From: Shinisaurus crocodilurus
Taxonomy: Eukaryota > Chordata > Lepidosauria > Squamata > Shinisauridae
Direction: 5' to 3'
Assembly: GCA_021292165.1 (NCBI GenBank)
Contig: CM037888.1
Span: 27,951,140-28,015,139 of the forward strand
DNA length: 64,000 nt
Below, piece after piece: positions 37,696 through 39,975 of the stretch (the first letter of the stretch is position 1; each line of letters opens with the position of its first letter). The translations under genes and the position numbers were made by a program. A model generated the notes under the pieces. The model ran no database searches. It was given only the letters and a program-made list of their open reading frames with translations, and was not told the origin of the DNA.

Positions 37696-38177
37696 AACAG
37701 TACTACAAGTGAGAAGGATCTTGGAGTTGTTGTAGATCACAAGCGGAATATGAGCCAGCAATGTGATGTGGCTGCAAAAAAGGCAAATGCTATTTTGGGC
37801 TGCATTAATAGAAGTATAGCTTCCAAATCGCATGAAGTACTAGTTCCCCTCTACTCAGCAGCACTGGTTAGGCCTCATCTTGAGTACTGCATCCAGTTCT
37901 GGGCACCACACTTTAAGAAGGATGTAGACAAACTGGAGAGGGTTCAGAGGAGGGCAACAAGGAAGATAAAGGGACTGGAAACAAAGCCCTATGAGGAGAG
38001 ACTGAAGGTACTGGGCATGTTTAGCCTTCAGAAGAGAAGACTGAGGGGAGATATGACAGTGCTCTTCAAGCACTTGAAAGGTTGTCACACAGAGGAGGGT
38101 CAGGATCTCTTCCCGACCATCCCAGAGTGCAGGACATGGAATAATGGGCTCAAGTTACAGGAAGCCAGATTCTAGCT
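37696..38177 (+). mobile_element. CR1 LINE RT, part 2
   Basis: Encodes [84 protein letters not shown] and GQDLFP, the CR1 ORF2 C-terminal blocks, in one open frame. Cut by the hAT at 38178 and resumes at 39754. Confidence 0.92.
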
Positions 38178-38249
38178 CAGGGGTCCTCAAACTACGGCCC
38201 GCGGGCCACATCCGGCCCACCTTGTCTTTTTATCCGGCCCGGCAGCCGA

Positions 38250-39060
38250 TCGTTGGTGGCATAGTGGTTGCTCGCACGAGAAGGAGAATCTCCTTCTCGC
38301 GTGGCTCTTCCGCAGCCGTCGGAGGAGGAAAGCTCCTGGGATTATAACGCTGACGTCATCCCGCGCGCTTTCCTCCTCCGACGGCTGCGATGGCCAGGGC
38401 TCCATTTTCCTGCTTGCTGTTAGCGCGCTTGTTCTTCTTGCCCTTGTTACTCTTCTGGTTCAGCATTGCCAAGGGAGGAGGAGGAGGTGGAGGTGGAGGT
38501 GGTGACGGCGAAGGCGAAGGCGAAGGCGCTTGATGCTGCTGCTGCTGATGCTGCTGCTGCCACCGCCGCTGCCGCCTCTTGCTTGATGCTGCCACCGCCG
38601 CTGCTACCACCACCACCAACCCCGGCTTATTGCAGCTCCATTGTCAGGCAGAGGAGCCAGCTCGCCCTCCCCCTCACGCACAACGGGCTCGTTGCGCACG
38701 TGCACACACCACAGCCGCCTGGCCACGGGAAGAAGTGCAAGCCAGGGGAAAGGCGTGTCTCGCTTGTTTTGATTCTGCTTCTTCTCCCTCGGCTGCGCTC
38801 CCCTCCCTCCTCCTCCTCCTCCTCCTCCTCCTCTCTTGCCCTGCCAGGCCCTGGTGACAGTGGAAAGCAAAGAGCAAGTGAAAGGAAGGGAGGAGGAAGG
38901 CGCAGCTCAGAGGCTGGACTAGTAGTGGCAGCGGCGGCAGCAGCAGGGAGGTGCTTGGGAGCTGCTAAGGTACTTTCAAAGCATCACGATGGTGATTGTG
39001 AAAGGGGTTCCTCCAGATACGTATGTCGGGATTCATCGCCCAAGCAGGAATAAATATGGG
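38250..39060 (+). promoter_or_regulatory. CpG-island-like promoter/exon segment inside the hAT
   Basis: CpG-dense, unlike the surrounding window. A perfect 23-bp inverted repeat (38311-38333 and 38367-38389) brackets a 33-bp spacer containing TGACGTCA (38351-38358), a consensus CRE. Downstream are CAG/CTG, CCG and CCT tracts, GGCGGCAGCAGCAG, and a donor-like CTAAG|GTACTT at about 38966-38977. Interpreted as a captured promoter plus first exon. Confidence 0.6.
38390..38533 (+). CDS. Small ORF with signal-peptide-like start (captured exon?)
   Basis: 47 codons from an ATG in strong context (G at -3 and +4) directly after the inverted repeat. Residues 1-13 are a short basic start (MARAPFSC...AR); residues 14-27 are a hydrophobic core rich in Leu and Phe ending SIA, as in a cleavable signal peptide. 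A run of ten Gly and Asp/Glu-Gly repeats to the stop TGA follows. A second Leu/Pro-rich mini-frame starts at 38533, overlapping the stop. No homologue recognised. Translation is unproven, and frame loss after the Gly tract is likely. Confidence 0.35.
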   Translation: MARAPFSCLLLARLFFLPLLLFWFSIAKGGGGGGGGGGDGEGEGEGA

Positions 39061-39191
39061 AATAGTGCATAGGCAAAATCTCTTAAACCCCGTGATCGCT
39101 TGACACGCTCCTCATTCTCGCCATGTGGACTTTTCTCTGTCTCCCCCCACCCTTGCCTGCATACTTTTGCATGCACGGCTTGCGTTATGCT

Positions 39192-39330
39192 CAGGGGTGG
39201 GCAACTTGTGGCCTCCTTGGTGTTGTTGGACTGCAACTCCCAGCATTCTTCACCATTGACTAGGCTGGCAGGGCTGATGAGAGTTGCAGTTCAACACTCG
39301 GAGGGCCAAAAGTTCCCGAACCCAACCCTG
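39192..39330. mobile_element. hAT MITE nested in the hAT
   Basis: Left CAGGGGTGGGCAACTTGTGG and right GGGCCAAAAGTTCCCGAACC are inverted; same family as 20202-20338. Flanking duplication is not clear. Confidence 0.8.
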
Positions 39331-39753
39331 CGCTAAAGCTTGAGAGTTTAGGACCCGAAGATGTTTGTCCAGATTAGTATGGAATTCAAAAGGGCAACCT
39401 TGTGTATGTGAGATAGACGTTTTTCTCTGCACATGTGCACGCTAGAAGATACCTCTGGAATTGTATCCACGTCCAGTTGCAATGCAGAATGGGCCAGTAG
39501 GCGGGTGCAAGCCCGTAGTCAGCCTAAAATTCCATCCTCCATTTAATCACTTATTAACATTATAATCATTAATATATAACTTTCCATTTAAGAAAAAAAA
39601 TAATTCACCCCATCAAGTAAAAAAAAAGGACCCGGGTCCTTTTTTTTTACTTGATCCATTCGTTCATATATTTTTTTCAAACTATAGTCCGTCCCCCCAA
39701 CAGTCTGAGGGACAATGAACTGCCCCCCTGTTTAAAAAGTTTGAGGACCCCTG

Positions 39754-39975
39754 TTCTAGCTGAACATCAGGAAAAACTTCCTGACTGTTAGAGCAATATG
39801 GCAATGGAACCAATTACCTAGGGAGCTCTCCCATACTGGATGCATTCAAGATGCCGCTAGACAGCAATCTGCTTTAACTTGGATTCCTGCATTGAGCAGG
39901 GAGTTGGACTCGATGGCCTTATAGGCCCCTTCCAACTCTACTACTCTATGATTCTATGATTCTGTGATATGATGA
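39754..39975 (+). mobile_element. CR1 LINE 3' end, part 3 (ATTCTATG tail)
   Basis: GAACATCAGGAAAAACTTCC, GGGAGTTGGACTCGATGGCC, CCCCTTCCAACTCTACTACT, then ATGATTCTATGATTCTGTG. Closes the CR1 begun at 37300. Confidence 0.92.

Follow-up and report, generated by a model that had tools for sequence, protein, structure and literature searches.

HECA-derived upstream and exon 1 sequence carried by a high-copy non-autonomous hAT transposon family in the genome of Shinisaurus crocodilurus

The window analyzed here, a stretch of 64,000 nucleotides of Shinisaurus crocodilurus contig CM037888.1, contains a complete hAT element at positions 38178-39753, inserted in a LINE-like frame. An earlier reading of this DNA, made from the letters alone (hereafter, the sequence-only reading), described an exact 8-bp target site duplication (TSD) and 16-bp terminal inverted repeats (TIRs), and both were confirmed: TTCTAGCT is present as a perfect match on the left (38170-38177) and right (39754-39761) flanks of the element, and the TIRs, CAGGGGTCCTCAAACT (38178-38193 and 39738-39753), are 16 bp long with no mismatches. 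The TIRs of hAT transposons are typically short and begin with CAGGG, and the 16-bp TIRs of this element, which start with CAGGG, show this Buster-like feature. When the two flanks were joined with a single TSD copy, they yielded a continuous 184-aa match (86%) to a reverse-transcriptase-like frame from the neighborhood of HECA, the gene discussed below. Thus, the rejoined flanks restore the frame of the repeat, indicating that the window copy is an insertion into an older LINE-like repeat (named by eye).

A genome search with the element, in which the best 40 of 5867 candidates were scored, the window included, produced 31 matches that span the whole element (window included), the other copies being 85-91% identical to it. 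A consensus of 1621 bp containing 103 CpGs was built from these 31 full-length sequences (1501-1655 bp), including the window copy. The hAT sequence proper occupies the two ends of the element, namely, a 5' part on the plus strand (38178-38386; consensus 1-209), which consists of the 16-bp TIR and a subterminal region, and a 3' part, also on the plus strand (39530-39753; consensus 1397-1621), which consists of an AT-rich subterminal region and the TIR. Three palindromes belong to the element itself. P1 (38272-38304; consensus 95-127) is followed by P2 (38311-38389), which surrounds the CRE TGACGTCA (38351-38358) and is not part of HECA. The arms of P2 (38311-38342 and 38358-38389) are 91% identical over 32 nt, and their outer 23 nt match perfectly, in agreement with the perfect 23-bp inverted repeat around the CRE that had been noted before. 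The third palindrome, P3 (39612-39655), is 44 bp long and perfect in the window copy; its exact 44 nt are found in 5 of the 31 HECA copies, with the others varying, partly within A/T runs. Several tandem repeats of the P1 half-unit GTTGCTCGCGCGAGAAGGAAAATC were observed in one HECA copy (L049:1300-1420).

The sequence between the two hAT parts (38387-39529, minus strand) is a single collinear copy, about 1.19 kb in consensus length, of a locus on contig C4. A peptide search of the genome gave 95 matches (150 of 176 candidates scored), with the top match at C4:93044484-93044612, 95% identical over residues 1-43. Furthermore, consensus positions 210-1396 align collinearly to C4:93044506-93045703, with 1130 of the 1215 alignment columns identical and 45 gap columns. 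The reverse strand of this donor locus opens with MPNQKSNKGKKNKRANSSGDEQENG..., the exon 1 ATG is located at C4:93044593, and the next exon, joined by an in-frame splice (DSKN|EAPCATP), lies about 19 kb away. A Pfam search with exon 2 identified HECA_N (1.8e-36) and Headcase (3.5e-34). The donor gene is HECA (headcase), and the search for a parent gene that had been recommended for the interior of the element was thereby answered. Taken together, the donor alignment and the identity of the gene indicate that the captured block comprises approximately 28 HECA codons together with the 5' leader and upstream DNA, up to a distance of about 1.1 kb from the start codon, and that its other end lies inside exon 1.

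The left boundary of the block lies at consensus position 210, where the two sides of the junction have GCG in common, and the right junction is placed, from the alignment, near position 1397. The junction base is A in all 35 aligned copies, as opposed to G in the donor, which fits one founding event. Within the block, a MITE-like insertion (named by eye; 39192-39330) is present at the HECA locus as well and was captured along with it; over consensus 1001-1200, the gap fraction in the 31 copies does not exceed 0.002. A 75% relative of this insertion was observed about 19 kb away on C4. In the 60-kb donor region, alignment to the element was confined to consensus 210-1396, apart from this MITE relative and short low-complexity matches, and no hAT ends were found around the donor block within these 60 kb.

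HECA runs leftwards (minus strand) in the window, with the start codon appearing as CAT at 38464-38466. The ORF that begins at this codon (38356-38466, minus strand) encodes 36 aa (MLNQKSNKGKKNKRANS...) and stops inside P2. The sequence-only reading was built on the opposite strand, and the window copy does contain the ORF, the CRE, and the donor-like splice site that it combined into a CRE-driven capture of a promoter, a signal-peptide exon, and the start of an intron. Such a sense capture is extremely improbable, given that HECA is antisense to it. The ATG at 38390 indeed opens 47 codons (38390-38533, plus strand), but this ORF is antisense to HECA exon 1 and we do not take it for a gene. 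Its signal-peptide-like start is the reverse strand of the first codons of HECA, its ATG was created at the capture junction, and its length is unstable, differing greatly among the 31 copies. The CRE palindrome, which had been assigned to the captured promoter, is the transposon's own and is present in relatives that lack HECA. The donor-like AAG|GTACTT is found in 1 of the 35 aligned copies; 27 copies read AAGGTTCTT at this position, as against AAAGGTTCTT at the HECA locus. The HECA part stops inside exon 1 and therefore includes neither an intron nor a splice donor of the gene. Thus, capture of a host gene was correctly recognized in that the upstream region and the start of the first exon of HECA were taken and amplified, yet the intron start and the orientation did not hold, and a false gene had been constructed from the antisense strand.

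In a protein search with the ORF, we obtained P0001 (E 6.8e-10), in which the hydrophobic stretch stands behind different upstream sequence; this first search gave two matches from the lgn source, with upstream sequence unlike the element, and pointed to the donor together with a second search. The latter yielded P0003 (3.8e-15) and P0004 (1.7e-4), where the antisense reading of the exon is again combined with other upstream sequence. Three weak lookalike proteins had E values of 0.37-0.84, the value of 0.84 belonging to a protein of Papio anubis. No Pfam families were identified for the product of the ORF, including that of the consensus, for P0001-P0004, or for the antisense peptide, and Rfam returned no family at gathering score. 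Matches in PDB (5 for the ORF, 30 for P0003, and none for P0004 or the antisense peptide) were dismissed as low-complexity noise; the best of these, with E 7.5e-4 for P0003, fell on the Gly-rich part and on linker-bearing chimeras.

The 1.19 kb and the MITE-like insertion common to the element and the HECA locus could also have arisen by transfer in the reverse direction, if an element inserted at HECA had given the block to the gene. This scenario is very improbable considering that the 60-kb donor region lacks hAT ends, that the block runs continuously into HECA exon 1, and that the antisense reading of the exon start occurs in P0003 and P0004, which come from other sources and have other upstream sequence. 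We also rejected a processed pseudogene or retrocopy, because the block includes upstream DNA and the MITE-like insertion and stops inside exon 1. Helitrons have neither TIRs nor TSDs, and capture by a Helitron was likewise rejected, the element having perfect TIRs and a perfect TSD.

The union of the matches from three genome searches amounts to 108 loci spread over 19 contigs, the donor among them. A search for other hATs with the same interior had been suggested and was productive: 107 further loci match the interior of the element, 60 of these were read in sequence, and in all 60, HECA sequence adjoins hAT sequence on at least one side. The loci that were read include all 29 non-donor loci from the peptide search, 9 of which repeat loci of the element search, and 47 of the 107 loci are known from a peptide or 27-mer match alone. 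The number of independent insertions is lower than 107, since some loci in unplaced contigs duplicate others. Matches to the HECA element recur near the end of C7 (94.01-94.17 Mb) and on the small contigs C228 and C229.

Both ends are visible in 41 of the 60 loci examined, and 35 of these 41 copies have perfect TSDs, all 35 distinct; 34 of the 35 have the form nnnTAnnn. Among the other two-ended copies, the TSDs of L031, L071, and L072 are one base off, and L015, L028, and L040 have unmatched flanks. The same imperfect TSD and end structure in L071 and L072 suggest duplicated segments or haplotigs. Before counting, we set aside the donor and the nine loci within L049-L077 already recovered by the element search. 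Internal chance matches to the 3' TIR, recognized by a following AAGATGTT or by a distance of under 1 kb from the 5' end, were set aside as well. TcBuster has been reported to have target sites of the form nnnTAnnn (PMC3499496). Judging from its sequence, the element is a member of the hAT superfamily with Buster-like target sites.

Relatives of the element that lack HECA were identified with both P2 and the 5' end. A CpG-tolerant 34-base pattern of P2 has 64 sites in the genome (none in the control), of which six (L092-L097) lie away from HECA loci. All six were read (511 bases each), and they keep the CRE and show no HECA sequence in up to about 250 bases beyond P2, where the sequence becomes GAGTGTC-like, with GCGTGTC in the case of L092. 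L094 and L097 appear to be a single site that was duplicated, and L096 carries P1 too. The first 23 bases of the element have 526 exact sites in the genome (none in the control), and among 100 listed sites, six correspond to known HECA copies (compared by eye). We read five non-HECA 5'-end regions (L087-L091), of which two were selected for the inverted order of their ends, along with three others from C1. These have the same 5' end as the element and other GC-rich interiors that are partly interrelated, with L089 and L090 being 98% alike. The first 71-76 nt of the element are common to L087-L091 and most of the 5' part to L093-L097, and the last 68-140 nt are found at 94-99% in L087 and L088. 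L087 and L088 each contain two elements in inverted order, and a P3-like palindrome near the 3' end recurs in L088 and L091.

The GC-rich interiors of L087-L091 may represent additional captures or belong to the 5' region of the element itself. Their occurrence in relatives without HECA, along with the abundance of hAT transposases in the genome, would also be compatible with the entire interior of the HECA element being the transposon's own 5' region and the element being an ordinary derivative formed by internal deletion. This reading is nevertheless exceedingly unlikely: all five 5'-end regions and all six P2 sites, as far as they were read, are without the block, bar short triplet-repeat matches, and HECA exon 1 contributes its start codon and coding frame to the block. 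The existence of relatives with the same 5' end and the CRE palindrome but without HECA argues for a true capture (Pack-hAT) and implies an origin outside HECA for both the hAT skeleton and the CRE. The interior is thus not family-wide and it does match a host gene, and on both of these points of sequence, which had been put forward as tests of the capture, the claim withstood the analysis.

The ratio of observed to expected CpGs is 0.66 at 38251-39060, compared to 0.28 for the window. The suggestion that the CpGs are largely undecayed was not borne out, because the window copy keeps 67 of the 103 consensus CpGs, which is ordinary for the family. Across the 31 copies, mismatches amount to 16.7% at CpG sites, compared to 2.2% at other sites, and about 0.9 of the CpG losses are TG or CA. 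CpG retention is 0.64 in the captured CpG-rich part, 0.70 in the rest of the block, and 0.66 in the element's own 5' part. Hypomethylation, which had been raised as an explanation, is therefore unsupported, given that CpGs decay faster than other sites and that captured sequence retains them to much the same extent as the element's own (0.64-0.70); the pattern looks like ordinary decay of methylated CpGs. The donor itself keeps 21 of the 37 consensus CpGs in the CpG-rich part, so that the captured stretch appears to be poorly protected at HECA, which argues against its being a strong island. At non-CpG sites of the captured part, the divergence from the consensus is 1.74% for the copies (35 sequences) and 2.26% for the donor (23 of 1017 sites, some of them in repeat tracts). 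Under a simple clock with an uncalibrated rate, this difference would place the capture slightly before the amplification, and capture probably occurred shortly before the burst.

Altogether, it is very likely that a hAT transposon with a CRE palindrome took about 1.19 kb of the HECA locus and then spread to about 100 loci, a history anchored in the donor locus, the identity of the gene, the left boundary of the block, the HECA-less relatives, and the multicopy transposition documented above. In the proposed sequence of events, a non-autonomous hAT with P1, P2, and the CRE already in place would have lost its interior, and an internal break or stalled fork, possibly favored by the palindromes, would have been filled from HECA by template switching during repair or replication. 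The GCG at the left junction would fit such template switching. One end of the copied stretch would lie at about codon 28 of HECA; from there, it would take in the start codon and the leader and reach into the upstream region, where the older MITE-like insertion is located. The composite was probably then spread by a trans-acting hAT transposase in a single burst, the window copy, inserted in a LINE-like repeat, being one of some hundred loci. Capture by end bypass, whereby a hAT located beside HECA used the wrong end, is highly unlikely compared to internal template switching: the HECA block lies inside the element, flanked on either side by subterminal hAT sequence and palindromes, a position that agrees with the gap-filling and fork-switching models as presented in the available text on animal Pack-TIRs (PMC8277862).

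We further searched for the transposase. Among the matches to the hAT dimerization domain (150 scored of 7321 candidates), none was linked to the ends of the element. With regard to an autonomous partner, the TIR was absent from the roughly 1.5 kb read to either side of all three transposase loci that were fetched, and no listed exact 5' 23-mer lies within 10 kb of any of the 13 listed transposase matches on C1 (compared by eye). Stop-free frames of more than 700 aa contain a number of the hAT transposase matches, and hAT activity may be recent in this genome. As for the HECA block, it would be mostly a passenger, and transcription directed leftwards across the 5' TIR could begin within it, should it contain the HECA start site. 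It appears unlikely that some of the copies act as mobile promoters directed outward over the 5' TIR and that plus-strand transcripts of copies, antisense to the leader and start codon of HECA, give rise to small RNAs regulating HECA in trans.

No earlier description of the HECA-bearing hAT family was found in the literature searched, with subscription papers and repeat databases lying outside that search. In the sources available, most work on cut-and-paste transposons that capture the starts of host genes concerns plants; in animals, amplification of captured promoters on a large scale has been shown for bat Helitrons. For the HECA family, one genome preserves the donor and the junction of the founder, together with relatives that lack the capture and about 100 copies that can be dated, so that the steps of capture become testable, as does the fate of a mobilized promoter region.

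The closest parallels are the animal Pack-TIRs (Tan et al. 2021). The available text of this survey of 100 genomes reports 370 Pack-TIRs, of which 208 are with hAT and four of the 370 are multicopy, with a median captured size of 224 bp; multicopy Pack-TIRs tend toward GC-rich captures and are ascribed to fork switching followed by transposition (PMC8277862). As in these elements, hAT ends and TSDs surround a host segment in the HECA element, and the parental copy lies elsewhere, unflanked by the element; the multicopy feature is present as well, in the form of 35 distinct perfect TSDs. In the terms of that text, the HECA element is a multicopy Pack-TIR (Pack-hAT), and about 100 copies are unusual against four multicopy cases in 100 genomes (PMC8277862). 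A frog Pack-TIR described there, with 291 bp of CAPSL including the 5'UTR in three places (PMC8277862), resembles the HECA element in being multicopy by transposition and in having taken a 5'UTR, which here is part of 1.19 kb at about 100 loci. Plant Pack-TYPE elements, by their available description (PMC8903248), are likewise non-autonomous DNA transposons that shuffle host sequence, in plant systems. The OC1 hAT partners (PMC3621081), by description, are similar in constituting a high-copy, internally deleted, non-autonomous hAT family, with no host gene segment mentioned in the accessible part of the report. Finally, HelibatN3 of bats carries the NUBPL promoter, six codons, and a splice donor, with chimeric transcripts demonstrated, and captured promoters of 15 genes account for 4,690 copies in bats, according to the available text (PMC4778049). 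In both HelibatN3 and the HECA family, the promoter region and first codons of a host gene were amplified by a DNA transposon; unlike HelibatN3, the family described here is a hAT rather than a Helitron, contains no HECA splice donor, and has fewer copies.
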